Shown here: positions 37,362 through 42,662 of the stretch, piece after piece
How the letters are laid out: every line of letters begins with the position of its first letter
How positions within the stretch are numbered: position 1 is the stretch's first letter
Source of the DNA: Acidimicrobiia bacterium
GTDB lineage: Bacteria; Actinomycetota; Acidimicrobiia; Spongiisociales; Spongiisociaceae
Assembly: GCA_009841075.1 (NCBI GenBank)
Contig: VXMP01000068.1
Span: 1-64,000, forward strand
Reading direction: 5' to 3'
DNA: 64,000 nt
The notes under the pieces: model-generated
Databases searched by the model: none
What the model was told of the DNA's origin: nothing
What the model saw: only the letters and a program-made list of their open reading frames with translations
Position numbers and translations under genes: made by a program

Positions 37362-40300
37362 TCAGTCGTTGTCGATGATGGTGCCGGTGGCGGTGGCGTT
37401 GTCGGCTATTACGGCACCGTCGGCTTCTGTTAACTCGATAACGAGGGTCTCGTCTCTCTCCCGTAAACGGTCGTCTCTGACGTTCACACCGGTTGTGGCC
37501 CTTGTCCAACCGGCCCAAATCGTTACCTGACCTATGCTGCCCCAATAGTCCAATCCATTGACGGCCGTGCCCGAAAGAATCCTAAAACGAACCGTAACAT
37601 CCTGCTCTGAAGGTTCGCTCAGCGTAACCTGGAACTCCAGTAGCGAGAGGAACCCGAACTCTCCCTCCACAACTGACCCGTCAGCGACCGACACCACAGG
37701 CAACCCCGGCTGTAGCGGGTCATCATTATCGGCAACCTCAACCGTGACCGAACCCTGCGTGGCCGACACCGTATAACCAGCCCGTCCGTTGACTGTCACA
37801 GTCACCGACCCGTCCAGCTCATCGGTGGTGTCATCAGAAGTCGAAACCGTCACCGTCGCCGTGCCGCTGATAGGAACCGTCACCGACCGTGAACCCGTAG
37901 ACACACCAAAATCACCCACCTGAGTGACCGTCACCGTAACCGACAAAGGCGCAGACGGAGCCGGGTTGGCGGTGACCGTAAACGAAACATCACCACCCTC
38001 CACGACCCCAGCCCCCGCCGTCACACTGATCTCCGGTGTCACAGGCAGAGGAACATCATCATCCGCCACAACAACAGTGGCAGTGCCCTGCGAAGAGGAG
38101 ACGGTATAGCCGCTGTAGGCGTTGACCGTCACAGTCACAGACCCGTCAGTTTCGTCGGTGCTGTCATTCGACGTCGAAACCGTGACGGTGGCTGTGCCGC
38201 TCGTGGGGACGGTAACCGTCCGCGAACCGGTAGAAGTTGCGTAGTTACCCTGCTGGCTGACCGTAACCTTCACCGAAAGCGGAGCAGACGGGGACGGGGA
38301 GGCGGTAACAGTAAACAAAACATCACCGCCCTCTGTGATCCCACTACCCGCAGTGACGCTGATTTCAGGTGTCACAGGCGGCGGAACATCATCATCCGCC
38401 ACAACAACAGTGGCAGAACCCAGCGAAGAAGAAACCGTATAACCGGAACCCCCGTTAACCGTAACCGTCACAGACCCGTCAGTTTCATCCGTGCTGTCAT
38501 CCGACGTCGAAACCGTCACCGTCACGCTCCCAGTAGTGGGTACGGTGACCGTGCGGGACCCCGTGGATGCACCATAATCCCCGTTTTGGCTGACCGTCAC
38601 CGACACCGACAACGCCGACGTAGGAGCGGGATCAGCCGTAACCGTAAACACCGCATCACCGCCCTCGGTGATCCCGCTTCCTGCAGTCACACTTATCTCT
38701 GGAGTGGCAGGCGGTGGGTCGTCGTTATCTGCCACATCAACCGAAGCAGAACCCTGCGAAGACGACACCGTATAACCAGAGCCCCCGTTCGCTGTAACAG
38801 TCACAGAACCGTCAGTCTCATCCGTACTGTCATCAGAAGTCGAAACCGTCACCGTCGCGGAGCCGCTCGTGGGGACAGTCACCGTCCTCGTCCCAGTAGT
38901 AGCCCCGAAATCACCGGTCTGGGCAACCGTCACCGACACCGACAAAGGTGACGAGGGTGCAGGACTGACCGTGACCGTAAACAAAGCGTCCCCGCCCTCA
39001 GTCACCCCACTACCGGCGGTCACGCTCACCACCGGAGTCGCCGGCGGCGGGGTGCCCTCCAAACACTCCAACGCCACCCTAAACCGAGACCAACGCCCAT
39101 CACCCAACTCCAACACCACAGCCTCAGCCGCCGACAACGGCGTGTTAAACGTACCGGTCACAGCCGACAACGCAATCCACGCCCGCCACCAATCATTCCG
39201 CTCCTTACGATTCGCTGCCGTATTCGCCAACCCATCATGATTCCCCTTCGCCTCCAAACCCAACGCATCCGTATCCCCACACCCCAACACCGGCGGAACA
39301 TCATCATCCGACACAACCACACTGTCTGTCCCCTGCGTGCTGGACACCGTATAACCCGACCCACCACCCACCGACACCGACACAGAACCATCCACCTCGT
39401 CCGTACTGTCATCCGAAGTCGAAACTGTCACGGTTGCGGAGCCGCTCGTGGGGACGGTAACCGTTTGCGAACCCGTAGCCACCCCAAAATCACCGTCTTG
39501 GACAACCGTCACCGACACCGAAAGCGGGGCCGTAGGTGCAGGACTGGCAGTAACCGTAAACGAAGCATCACCACCCTCGGTAACCCCACTACCCGCAGTC
39601 ACACTCACCACCGGAGTCACCGGCGGCGGGGTACCCTCCAAACACTCCAACGCCACCCTAAACCGACTCCAACGCAAATCACCCGACTCCAACACATTTG
39701 CCTCCGCAGCCGTCAACGGCGTGTTAAAGGTGCCGGTCACAGCCGACAACGCAATCCACGCCCGCCACCAATCGTTGCGCTCCTTCCGGTTCGCCAAAGT
39801 ATTCGGCAATCCATCATGATTGGCCCGTGCCTCCAACCCCAACGCATCAGTATCCCCACACCCCAACACCGGCGGAACATCATCATCAGACACCACCACA
39901 GAAGCCGAACCCTCCGACGAAGAAACCGTATAACCCGACCCACCGGCAACCGTCACCGACACCGACCCGTCGACCTCATCCGCATCGTCATCGGAAGTAG
40001 ACACGGTCACGGTCGCGCTGCCGCTCGTCGGTACCGTCACCGTCCGAGAACCCACCGACACACCGAAATCACCCACCTGGGCCACCGACACATCAACCGA
40101 CAACGGCGCGTTTGGTGCCGGGCCGGCAGACACCGTGAACACCGCATCGCCGCCCTCGGTCACTCCCGTACCCGCGGTGACGCTCACCTTCGGCTTCTGC
40201 GACGACGTGTCAGAAAACACCCAGGGACGGGCTTGTTTGATGGCCAGCGTGTTGTCGGCTGTGATCTTGAACTCGATCTCGATAGCGAACCGGTCACCGT

Positions 40301-42662
40301 CTTGTATGTTGTAGAGGGTTTTGAATCTGTCGTGGATGGTCTTGAGGTTGTTGCGGAGTTGCACCATCTGGGTATCGCTCATCAGCAGCGTCCCCGACGA
40401 GACCAGGTTGGAGCGGGCCAGCACGGTTGCCTTGCCCTTAGAATCCAGCAATAGCTGCTCGGGGTGCGACTTGGCTTCGGGGTTGGTAACCAGGTCCTCG
40501 CCCAGCTGCGAGTTCACATAGTAGGCATCAGGAGAGAAGGTGACCGGGTCGTAGCTGACGGCTACCCCGTTCACCCGCTCATCAGAAAAGTTGGGATGTA
40601 CCAACACCCCCATAGCCACCGACTTGTGATCCACCCGGTAATAATCCCGTTCCAAAAACGCCCGAAAGTTCCACAAACTCGCCCACACCGCCTTAATCGA
40701 CTTATCAATACCATCCTCAGCAGTCTCATCAGGATCCTGTGTTTTAGAGTCATATAGCCCGGCCCCGTTGAACGCGGAGAGATCTTCGTTGTTCGTGCTT
40801 GACCGATACCGCAAAGACGTCCCCACCGGATACTCCTCATGCAAATCCTCCAACGCCTCAACAATCCAATCAGGGCTGTCGGCGTCTTTGATGGCGTCGC
40901 GCAGGTCGTCCAGCATCTCCTCCTGGATGTCGTAGTCCGCCTGGAAACGCGGGTGTGCGAGGATCTGGGTCACAACCGCGCTGAGCTTCGTGCCTGCAGG
41001 CAGCGTGAGCTTGTCGGCGTCCGGCCACTTCTTCTTACCGAAAAGGGTTTCATCTGCCAGCCCGGCATTCTTCATAAACTCGTCATAAAAGTAGAACGGC
41101 ACCGCGAATCCCGTCGGCACCGTACCCTCCGGCAAACCCAACTTGCTGAGCTCCGCCAAATTCGCCGCCTTAACCCCGAAAGCATCCCAATCATCAAAAG
41201 AGACATCCGCCAACGAAGCGATTCCAGTGACGGTCAGGTCACGAACCAGCGTCTGAGTCCCCGCAGGCCTACGGCTCTGGTGAAACTCATCCACCTCCGC
41301 CTTCAACGCCTCACGCAAAACAAAACCATCAGCAGCCACAGAAAAATACACAAACTGGCCGAACAGTCCCTTCAAATCCTCATCCTTCAAAATGTCACGA
41401 ATGAAAGCATTCGGCACACCATTCTGAATCGCCCGCAAATTCACATGCGACAAAGGGGTCTGCGGCACCGTAGTAATCGACCCCGCCACCCGCGGTAAAT
41501 CATTCGGCAACGACTCATAAACCGGAATCTCATGAGGCCGAGGATCATCATCATCAGGACCCATCAACCGCAACCGACCAAAACCCTCCGCCTGATTCAA
41601 AGGCATATAATCCGCAATAGGACGAATGTCTTCGTGCAGTAGGACATTGATCCTTTTGGCACTGAAGGCGGCTTTGTTGGCCTTGTAGCGGGATTCAAAC
41701 TGCGGTTTTGAAGGGGTATACACCAAATTATTCTCAACAAAAGGCAGGGCAGACGCCAACAACTGATTCATATGGCCTGCATATGGAGTGGGAGGCAACT
41801 TCGTACCTAAGTTGTAGACATACACGCCTAAAGAACCGTCCGGAGCCATGACGTTCTCGAAATAGCTTATAGTGCCGGAAAGTCGCGATCGTGTAGAGAT
41901 GTCATCTATTCCAACCCGACGCAGCTCCTTAATAATTTCATGGTGATAGCAATCATCAGCTTGGCTGTGATCCAAGAAATACACAGATGGATTACTCGTG
42001 AGCCAATCCACAATAACGAACTTGATATGAACCTCGTGCCAGGCCTTGCAATGGTCTTGAGTGGCGTACAGGCTTGAAATCTCTTCGAAACTCTCGTGAG
42101 AGTCGATACCCACCCTGCCGACCGTGCTGCTGATTTCTCTGGCCGGATTGAGCGGGTTGTAGGCACCCAAATCATCAAGTTCGGTGATGTCATCAACACA
42201 ATCGCCGTCCAGATCGCCCGGCCGGGCCACCTCATATTTCTCAACCCGATACTTGGCCGGACCAACCGCCTTCAGGTTGTCCCGCAAGACGGTGGTTCCC
42301 TCCAGCCCACGAGTAACCGAAACCGCAATGTGTGTCGGGTTCACCTCATTGTGCCTCGGGTTGCCGATCTTGCCCGGATTCGGATGGTTCACATACAGCA
42401 CGAAATAGTCGGCAACGGTCGACGCCACAACAACCGGTACCTCGCTCACCGCCACCGACACCGGAGTCGGCGCTACATAACCATCCTCGCAAGGGCCCGG
42501 TAAAGACCCGTGATCTTCGCTGCTATCTGCGGCTACGGTCCCCCATGACGACGGCCCAACAACGCTTGCGACCGTGAGCCCCAACGCCAACCACCAAAGA
42601 CCCCCCCCCATCGACCTCATACCCCTAACCCTGGAAGGGATCTTGTGAGTGCGTCTAATCAC
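37362..42662 (-). CDS. Giant secreted protein: PEP/pyruvate-binding (PPDK-like) domain plus Calx-beta repeats
   Basis: A 1766-residue protein starting at GTG 42662, or internal ATGs at 42620 or 42611. A signal peptide (GLWWLALGLTVASVVG) is followed by a region with a calcium-loop-like DLDGDCVDDITELDDL (about 151–166). Next comes a phosphohistidine-swivel motif TPLSHVNLRAIQNGVPNAF (His406). A PPDK N-terminal ATP-grasp-like domain spans about 480–815, with SLRYRSSTNNEDLSAFNGAG, GLYDSKTQ and LAIKQARPW. Residues about 823–1763 are seven Calx-beta-like domains, six nearly alike and the last divergent, interrupted by two Trp-rich modules. No membrane anchor is seen. The substrate and role are unknown. 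An extracellular PEP-type enzyme lacking cytosolic ATP would be odd, so binding or carbohydrate recognition is also possible. Confidence 0.85.
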   Translation of the reverse strand: MIRRTHKIPSRVRGMRSMGGGLWWLALGLTVASVVGPSSWGTVAADSSEDHGSLPGPCEDGYVAPTPVSVAVSEVPVVVASTVADYFVLYVNHPNPGKIGNPRHNEVNPTHIAVSVTRGLEGTTVLRDNLKAVGPAKYRVEKYEVARPGDLDGDCVDDITELDDLGAYNPLNPAREISSTVGRVGIDSHESFEEISSLYATQDHCKAWHEVHIKFVIVDWLTSNPSVYFLDHSQADDCYHHEIIKELRRVGIDDISTRSRLSGTISYFENVMAPDGSLGVYVYNLGTKLPPTPYAGHMNQLLASALPFVENNLVYTPSKPQFESRYKANKAAFSAKRINVLLHEDIRPIADYMPLNQAEGFGRLRLMGPDDDDPRPHEIPVYESLPNDLPRVAGSITTVPQTPLSHVNLRAIQNGVPNAFIRDILKDEDLKGLFGQFVYFSVAADGFVLREALKAEVDEFHQSRRPAGTQTLVRDLTVTGIASLADVSFDDWDAFGVKAANLAELSKLGLPEGTVPTGFAVPFYFYDEFMKNAGLADETLFGKKKWPDADKLTLPAGTKLSAVVTQILAHPRFQADYDIQEEMLDDLRDAIKDADSPDWIVEALEDLHEEYPVGTSLRYRSSTNNEDLSAFNGAGLYDSKTQDPDETAEDGIDKSIKAVWASLWNFRAFLERDYYRVDHKSVAMGVLVHPNFSDERVNGVAVSYDPVTFSPDAYYVNSQLGEDLVTNPEAKSHPEQLLLDSKGKATVLARSNLVSSGTLLMSDTQMVQLRNNLKTIHDRFKTLYNIQDGDRFAIEIEFKITADNTLAIKQARPWVFSDTSSQKPKVSVTAGTGVTEGGDAVFTVSAGPAPNAPLSVDVSVAQVGDFGVSVGSRTVTVPTSGSATVTVSTSDDDADEVDGSVSVTVAGGSGYTVSSSEGSASVVVSDDDVPPVLGCGDTDALGLEARANHDGLPNTLANRKERNDWWRAWIALSAVTGTFNTPLTAAEANVLESGDLRWSRFRVALECLEGTPPPVTPVVSVTAGSGVTEGGDASFTVTASPAPTAPLSVSVTVVQDGDFGVATGSQTVTVPTSGSATVTVSTSDDSTDEVDGSVSVSVGGGSGYTVSSTQGTDSVVVSDDDVPPVLGCGDTDALGLEAKGNHDGLANTAANRKERNDWWRAWIALSAVTGTFNTPLSAAEAVVLELGDGRWSRFRVALECLEGTPPPATPVVSVTAGSGVTEGGDALFTVTVSPAPSSPLSVSVTVAQTGDFGATTGTRTVTVPTSGSATVTVSTSDDSTDETDGSVTVTANGGSGYTVSSSQGSASVDVADNDDPPPATPEISVTAGSGITEGGDAVFTVTADPAPTSALSVSVTVSQNGDYGASTGSRTVTVPTTGSVTVTVSTSDDSTDETDGSVTVTVNGGSGYTVSSSLGSATVVVADDDVPPPVTPEISVTAGSGITEGGDVLFTVTASPSPSAPLSVKVTVSQQGNYATSTGSRTVTVPTSGTATVTVSTSNDSTDETDGSVTVTVNAYSGYTVSSSQGTATVVVADDDVPLPVTPEISVTAGAGVVEGGDVSFTVTANPAPSAPLSVTVTVTQVGDFGVSTGSRSVTVPISGTATVTVSTSDDTTDELDGSVTVTVNGRAGYTVSATQGSVTVEVADNDDPLQPGLPVVSVADGSVVEGEFGFLSLLEFQVTLSEPSEQDVTVRFRILSGTAVNGLDYWGSIGQVTIWAGWTRATTGVNVRDDRLRERDETLVIELTEADGAVIADNATATGTIIDND
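39045..39291 (-). repeat. Trp-rich insert module, copy 2
   Basis: Second copy of the same module, between Calx-beta units 2 and 3, with few substitutions (for example ARANHDGLPNT becomes AKGNHDGLANT). The alternation Calx–module–Calx–module suggests that a Calx–module pair was duplicated as one block. Confidence 0.75.
39627..39870 (-). repeat. Trp-rich insert module, copy 1
   Basis: An about 80-residue module between Calx-beta units 1 and 2. It runs from GCGDTDALGLEA through NRKERNDWWRAWIALSAVTG and TFNTPLTAAEA to RWSRFRVALECLEG. It has two cysteines, near its start and end, that could form a disulphide outside the cell. It is nearly identical to the second copy at 39045–39291. Confidence 0.75.

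Follow-up and report, generated by a model that had tools for sequence, protein, structure and literature searches.

The minus strand of the window analysed here (a stretch of 64,000 nucleotides from an Acidimicrobiia bacterium) encodes a protein of 1766 aa that belongs to a widespread family of apparently exported, probable dikinases in which the phosphohistidine-type domain lies ahead of the ATP-grasp domain; a literature search, with subscription journals mostly outside its reach, turned up no study devoted to such proteins. In the reading that we prefer, to which we give about an even chance, this protein is a competent dikinase that is exported and probably kept at the surface by its Calx-beta array, with a swapped N-domain that would choose the acceptor. 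Phosphohistidine dikinases are regarded as enzymes that act inside the cell, in central or starch metabolism, in aromatic catabolism or in drug inactivation. An exported branch that spans several phyla and retains an intact engine raises the questions of where the ATP originates and what is phosphorylated outside the cell.

Domain architecture of the window protein

The gene is a single uninterrupted open reading frame with a GTG start that is immediately preceded by a GAGG box; an ATG at 42620 is a possible alternative start. It is flanked by a convergent pair of genes resembling 2-oxoacid:ferredoxin oxidoreductase and by an aspartokinase-like gene (names assigned by sequence reading), and no operon is evident from these flanking genes. 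The host genome contains at least two more copies of the family, one on contig C88 and a partial one on contig C69. The features of the gene are listed below, with the basis of each in brackets.

37362..42662, minus strand: whole gene, 1766 aa, GTG start (sequence)
42528..42662, minus strand: signal peptide, residues 1-45 (sequence; hydropathy rule)
42138..42512, minus strand: strand-rich N-terminal region, residues 51-175, with the conserved Cys pair C58/C155 (predicted model; Cys co-occurrence)
42177..42215, minus strand: DLDGDCVDDITEL calcium-type motif, residues 150-162 (sequence, motif by eye, without a Pfam match)
41613..42137, minus strand: N-domain, residues 176-350, with invariant H240; proposed acceptor domain, exchanged between genes (alignment, trees, fold searches, dS)
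41223..41612, minus strand: phosphohistidine-type (swivel) domain, residues 351-480 (motif, position, sub-threshold profile matches)
41445..41459, minus strand: TPLSH motif, residues 402-406, with H406 (invariant in 50/50 sequences)
40188..41222, minus strand: ATP-grasp domain (PPDK_N), residues 481-825 (Pfam; fold matches; residue mapping)
37365..40187, minus strand: C-terminal array of six Calx-beta-like repeats, two W-rich modules and a terminal Calx-beta domain (Pfam; self-similarity)
37365..37637, minus strand: terminal Calx-beta domain (PF03160), residues 1676-1766 (Pfam; recurs in other large proteins of the genome)

The original prediction described a secreted, PPDK-like protein with a signal peptide, a TPLSH phosphohistidine-type motif, an ATP-grasp-like domain and seven Calx-beta-like repeats, and this inventory of parts is borne out; neither of the results named as refuting it, a failed signal peptide prediction or a lack of the ATP-grasp residues in a domain unrelated to PPDK, was obtained. 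The signal peptide, recognized by a hydropathy rule rather than by a trained predictor, comprises a basic n-region, a core of LWWLALGLTVASVVG and a cleavage site between VAA and DSS. The Pfam search matched PF01326 (PPDK_N) to residues 495-824 (E 5.6e-23, 82 bits), and both SLRYRSSTNNEDL and QARPW, as quoted in the prediction, fall inside this match. The seven repeats resolve into six mutually similar ones, which begin at about residues 826, 1018, 1211, 1322, 1433 and 1544, and a divergent terminal one; the likeness to Calx-beta proteins passes the PF03160 cut-off in this terminal domain only (31.7 bits versus 27), the other six scoring below the model.

Missing from that description were the His-first domain order, the N-domain, for which there is no Pfam match, the strand-rich region with its DLDGDCVDDITEL motif, and a pair of W-rich modules, each about 77 aa long, situated between repeats (residues ~936-1012 and ~1129-1205; window 39627-39857 and 39048-39278, minus strand). 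These modules follow the pattern GCGD...KERNDWWRAWIALSAVTGTFNTPLTAAEA...ALECLEG and match no Pfam family; related modules (HVLRWxRVLxALG) are found in L016, L017, L020, L022, L031, L034, L040 and L041.

Two further observations concern the variable parts of the protein. A stretch of about 25 residues in the ATP-grasp domain, LFGKKKWPDADKLTLPAGTKLSAV (residues ~541-593, window region 40886-41040), occurs in only some members, which are scattered over the core tree (in comparison with L010, L020, L032 and L039); this suggests another segment subject to exchange or to repeated loss. Copies of the terminal Calx-beta domain are found in many further open reading frames of the host genome (2.3 Mb; C1, C40, C41, C43, C69, C77, C81, C83 and C88), including one of 4898 codons on C41 that carries many copies, and giant surface-type repeat proteins are abundant in this genome.

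Catalytic residues and relation to known dikinases

The predicted model of the dikinase module, obtained with a 50-row alignment, has a mean pLDDT of 89.4 and a pTM of 0.72, and its best PDB matches in a Foldseek search are rifampin phosphotransferase (RPH; E 2.6e-16), HpeI, PEP synthase and PPDK. The comparison with PPDK and RPH envisaged in the original prediction thus yields fold matches to both enzymes, and K498, R620 and S639 align with the RPH active-site residues Lys22, Arg117 and Thr136. In RPH, the Lys22Ala mutant is inactive, whereas Arg117Ala and Thr136Val no longer phosphorylate rifampin (PMC4844700). All three positions, along with E797, Q810, R812, H406 and H240, are invariant in the 50 aligned rows, although the invariance of E797 alone proves little because the Glu297Ala replacement is tolerated in RPH (PMC4844700). 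In more distant members, TPLSH is replaced by APLGH or TPLAH with the His retained, and the catalytic residues are otherwise kept.

The dN/dS of the core ranges from 0.06 to 0.38 in the compared pairs, indicative of purifying selection. Because the ATP-site residues and H406 are invariant and core dN/dS is low, the engine is most likely working, that is, competent for the ATP-to-His half reaction. The catalytic state, which the original prediction left open, is resolved only in part, for this half reaction; the suggestion that the protein might be a fossil of an enzyme is at odds with the invariance of all the catalytic positions checked in the 50 aligned sequences and with the selection acting on the core.

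The putative phosphohistidine domain is assigned from its motif, its position and a GWD1_pHisD match that stays sub-threshold, not from a confident profile match. GWD1_pHisD is the best Pfam match for this domain in 13 of the 29 members, always below the curated cut-off, and falls on the TPLSH segment in several family members; this GWD phosphohistidine profile (PF22973) is sub-threshold in many members, with a best E of 8e-4 and an E of 0.28 for the window protein. An hhalign comparison of the domain with one PEP synthase sequence placed TPLSH over the catalytic His motif with a probability of 0.3% and was not used as evidence.

With an ATP-grasp domain, a phosphohistidine-type domain and intact residues in both, the window protein can be regarded as a dikinase in the broad sense. 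It shares with PPDK and PEP synthase the PPDK_N ATP-grasp with its ATP-site residues. However, the PEP/pyruvate TIM barrel is missing (there is no PEP-utilizers_C Pfam match in the 1766 aa, and the fold matches of the module cover the ATP-grasp only), the protein appears to be exported, and H406 lies ahead of the ATP-grasp domain (481-825), in the reverse of the PPDK order. Because the barrel is absent and the order reversed, the protein is not a PPDK, and the description "PPDK-like" does not hold for the substrate; the names "PEP/pyruvate-binding" and "phosphoenolpyruvate synthase" under which the databases list such proteins are misleading for the exported, His-first family.

In plant glucan water dikinase (GWD), the phosphohistidine domain is followed by a C-terminal ATP-grasp domain. 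The window protein resembles GWD and phosphoglucan water dikinase (PWD) in having the phosphohistidine-type domain N-terminal to the ATP-grasp, but it has no CBM45 starch-binding Pfam match and is bacterial and seemingly exported rather than plastidic; the best Pfam match of its His domain, GWD1_pHisD, is below cut-off. No GWD structure has been solved (PMC12892837), and this tentative likeness is one of Pfam profile and domain order, as distinct from a direct comparison with a GWD structure or sequence. With RPH and the HpeHI-type small-molecule dikinases, the protein shares the ATP-grasp fold and the ATP-site residues. It differs from these enzymes in the opposite domain order, the lack of a rifampin-binding domain and the predicted export; the full-length model RIF_Ptrans_rph reaches 42.7 bits against a cut-off of 999, on the ATP-grasp part only, and a search of the PDB with the N-domain returned no RPH match. 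The same order of N-domain, His domain and ATP-grasp is found in Streptomyces proteins annotated as "PEP/pyruvate-binding domain-containing protein" (for example, WP_331760287.1), which are 28-30% identical to the window protein over the aligned part but, unlike it, have neither a signal peptide nor repeats.

Distribution and predicted export of the family

Relatives were sought with strict peptide patterns over the contigs of 84,980 species genomes; 129 loci matched and 80 were kept. These 129 pattern-matched relatives, combined with the mean pLDDT of 89 of the model based on the 50-row alignment, place the family far beyond chance. The closest relatives among the 80 kept loci belong to Acidimicrobiia and Chloroflexota/Dehalococcoidia metagenome bins, and others come from Bacteroidota, Verrucomicrobiota, Planctomycetota, Fermentibacteraceae-type bins, an alphaproteobacterium (Hellea) and Streptomyces; the 50 aligned sequences represent at least six phyla. 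The occurrence is patchy: members were found in 8 of 395 genomes of the class, in 3 of 289 and 9 of 396 genomes of two other phyla sampled, and in none of the nine genomes of the same genus at E 1e-10. Phages and viral contigs yielded no relative, and plasmids only distant ones. The search for the same architecture in other phyla, which the original prediction proposed together with a search for shared neighbours, revealed an apparently exported, multi-phylum family, but no conserved partner and no clue to the substrate among the neighbour genes of the scanned loci.

In four genomes of the Flavobacteria type, and in a further one from Bacteroidota whose other neighbours differ, the sole gene that stays next to the minimal exported dikinase is one for a DUF4956 membrane protein, convergent with it (tail-to-tail). 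The five DUF4956 genes are located as follows.

L144, 5267-5821: DUF4956 gene
L145, 7936-8490: DUF4956 gene
L146, 5122-5676: DUF4956 gene
L147, 5207-5764: DUF4956 gene
L148, 7363-7917: DUF4956 gene

A Roseibacillus genome (L052 / G397) has three family copies, and in L058 and L059 EF-hand-like DxDGD repeats lie ahead of the engine. Several of the bin series that hold relatives come, we assume, from marine sponges. In Ircinia sponge metagenomes, Calx-beta has been reported as enriched, and Actinobacteriota were not found to be enriched for eukaryotic-like proteins (PMC9531527).

Export appears to be the rule across the family, with relatives bearing Sec signals. A hydrophobic, signal-like segment precedes the module in 43 of the 47 relatives under a rough hydropathy rule used in place of a trained predictor, and the minimal Bacteroidota members, of about 630 aa, consist of a signal peptide and the engine, with nothing more. 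A lipobox is present in one Acidimicrobiia member, the T9SS sorting domain TIGR04183 scores above cut-off in two members from Bacteroidota, and the Hellea member (L063 2644-4695) starts with NISRRAVLTSLGAGALPAHFSIAQA, a Tat-like signal which, if it is one, would imply export in the folded state, possibly with nucleotide bound. The cysteines C58 and C155 are both present in 30 rows and both absent in 17, with three more rows having Cys only in the signal-peptide stretch, a co-occurrence that fits a disulfide. Only the Streptomyces versions, which have no signal peptide, look cytosolic. Because Calx-beta arrays are carried by only part of the family, the array is a lineage-specific add-on; in the window protein, it probably serves to hold the enzyme at or near the cell surface.

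N-domain exchange and proposed function

Folded alone, the N-domain is predicted with a mean pLDDT of 93. All its PDB matches have a TM below 0.35, the leading ones, to APOBEC and ADF proteins, with an rmsd mostly above 10, and viral models gave nothing better; all of these were treated as no match. Across the 50 rows, H240 is invariant and K214 nearly so.

The evolution of this domain follows that of the rest of the module poorly. Pairwise identity in the N-domain correlates with that in the ATP-grasp domain with a Spearman coefficient of 0.23, somewhat lowered by saturation of the N-domain, compared to 0.91 and 0.80 for the flanking segments. Because saturation depresses this coefficient, the trees and synonymous rates carry more weight. 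The N-domain tree places the window gene with L016, L017 and L019, whereas the core tree makes it the sister of L018. The AU test on the N tree rejected a clade of the window gene and L018 (p 4e-9), and that on the core tree rejected the grouping of the window gene with L016, L017 and L019 (p 9e-6), the groups in both cases having been named after the trees were seen, which weakens the p values; a single shared tree for the N-domain and the core is rejected. Between the window gene and its paralogue on C88, dS over four successive segments is 0.59, saturated (N-domain), 0.01 (His domain) and 0.59. Two tracts of identity were found, one with this paralogue and one with L018.

41115..41517, minus strand: 403-bp tract identical to the C88 paralogue, with divergent sequence on both sides (sequence comparison)
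39782..40586, minus strand: 805-bp tract identical to L018 (genome of another family), reaching the end of that contig

In the cross-phylum pairs L028/L022 and L037/L044, dS is lower in the N-domain than in the core. Positive selection as the source of N-domain variety is unsupported, dN/dS being 0.11-0.47 in the compared pairs. Taken together, these comparisons indicate that the N-domain comes in discrete types that are exchanged between otherwise similar genes.

The exchange, although not the enzyme itself, would be called into question if look-alike genes had been joined at identical repeats during metagenome assembly. Such a join could account for the identity with L018, which extends to the end of a contig, and the contig C88 breaks off at the same position in the gene. 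However, the 403-bp tract in common with C88 lies inside the sequence and is bounded by divergent DNA at either end, the same kind of pattern is seen in L037/L044 and L028/L022, where the partners come from different phyla, and the tree and Spearman signals draw on rows from many contigs, several of them longer than 90 kb. We consider an artefact of this kind improbable.

Because it is exchanged between genes with near-constant engines, the N-domain most likely sets acceptor specificity. An acceptor role is also suggested by elimination, since apart from the two engine domains this one alone is retained by every member, those of Streptomyces included, and is in line with the interchangeable acceptor domains of known swivel-His dikinases (PMC12167813). 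In the proposed mechanism, the ATP-grasp domain would bind Mg-ATP and transfer a phosphate to H406 of the swivel domain, releasing AMP and Pi, and the swivel domain would then deliver the phosphate to an acceptor bound by residues 176-350. By analogy with GWD, a glycan hydroxyl is our first guess for this acceptor, a tentative one with perhaps one chance in four. Somewhat more speculative still is the broader scenario in which such exported dikinases phosphorylate extracellular or host glycans, or other acceptors, with ATP from outside the cell, and cohabiting phyla swap the acceptor-domain cassette. The natural chimaeras, with one domain swapped and engines that are nearly identical, offer a direct way to test what the acceptor is.

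The scarcity of ATP outside the cell counts against an exported dikinase; the simplest source would be extracellular ATP from the host or from lysed cells. The main rival readings dispense with either the acceptor or the chemistry. An extracellular enzyme that merely consumed ATP, converting it to AMP and Pi through hydrolysis of phospho-His without a special acceptor, could serve, for example, in phosphate scavenging or in lowering extracellular ATP signals; the ATP half-site is complete, and in vitro ATP cleavage persisted in RPH variants devoid of the second half reaction (PMC4844700). Nevertheless, every member retains the N-domain, which has an invariant His and evolves under purifying selection; this suggests a second substrate, and we regard the ATP-consuming reading as rather unlikely. 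Less probable again is a pseudo-enzyme, a dikinase derivative that holds nucleotide or glycans at the surface without phosphotransfer: the extracellular location, the adhesion-type Calx-beta array and the lack of a known ATP supply would all suit it, but the invariance of the catalytic residues and of TPLSH is unlike a decaying site, and even the distant members keep these residues, the APLGH and TPLAH variants retaining the His. The possibility of an enzyme that works in the cytosol, with its signal peptide a membrane anchor or a start-codon artefact, seems very slight; it draws on the Streptomyces relatives and on the uncertainty of the start codon, against which stand independent export signals in many phyla, the T9SS tails, the lipobox, the Cys pairing and the surface-type repeats within the same chain.

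Beyond the exported, competent dikinase with a swapped acceptor domain that we favour, the His-first order has a counterpart on two Streptomyces plasmids (L013 2076-5449 and L014 2142-5518), where the apparently cytosolic homologue follows the gene of an ATP-grasp protein, with overlapping ends, and precedes that of an MFS transporter. This gene set is likely to be a small biosynthetic operon that could reveal an acceptor for the His-first order.
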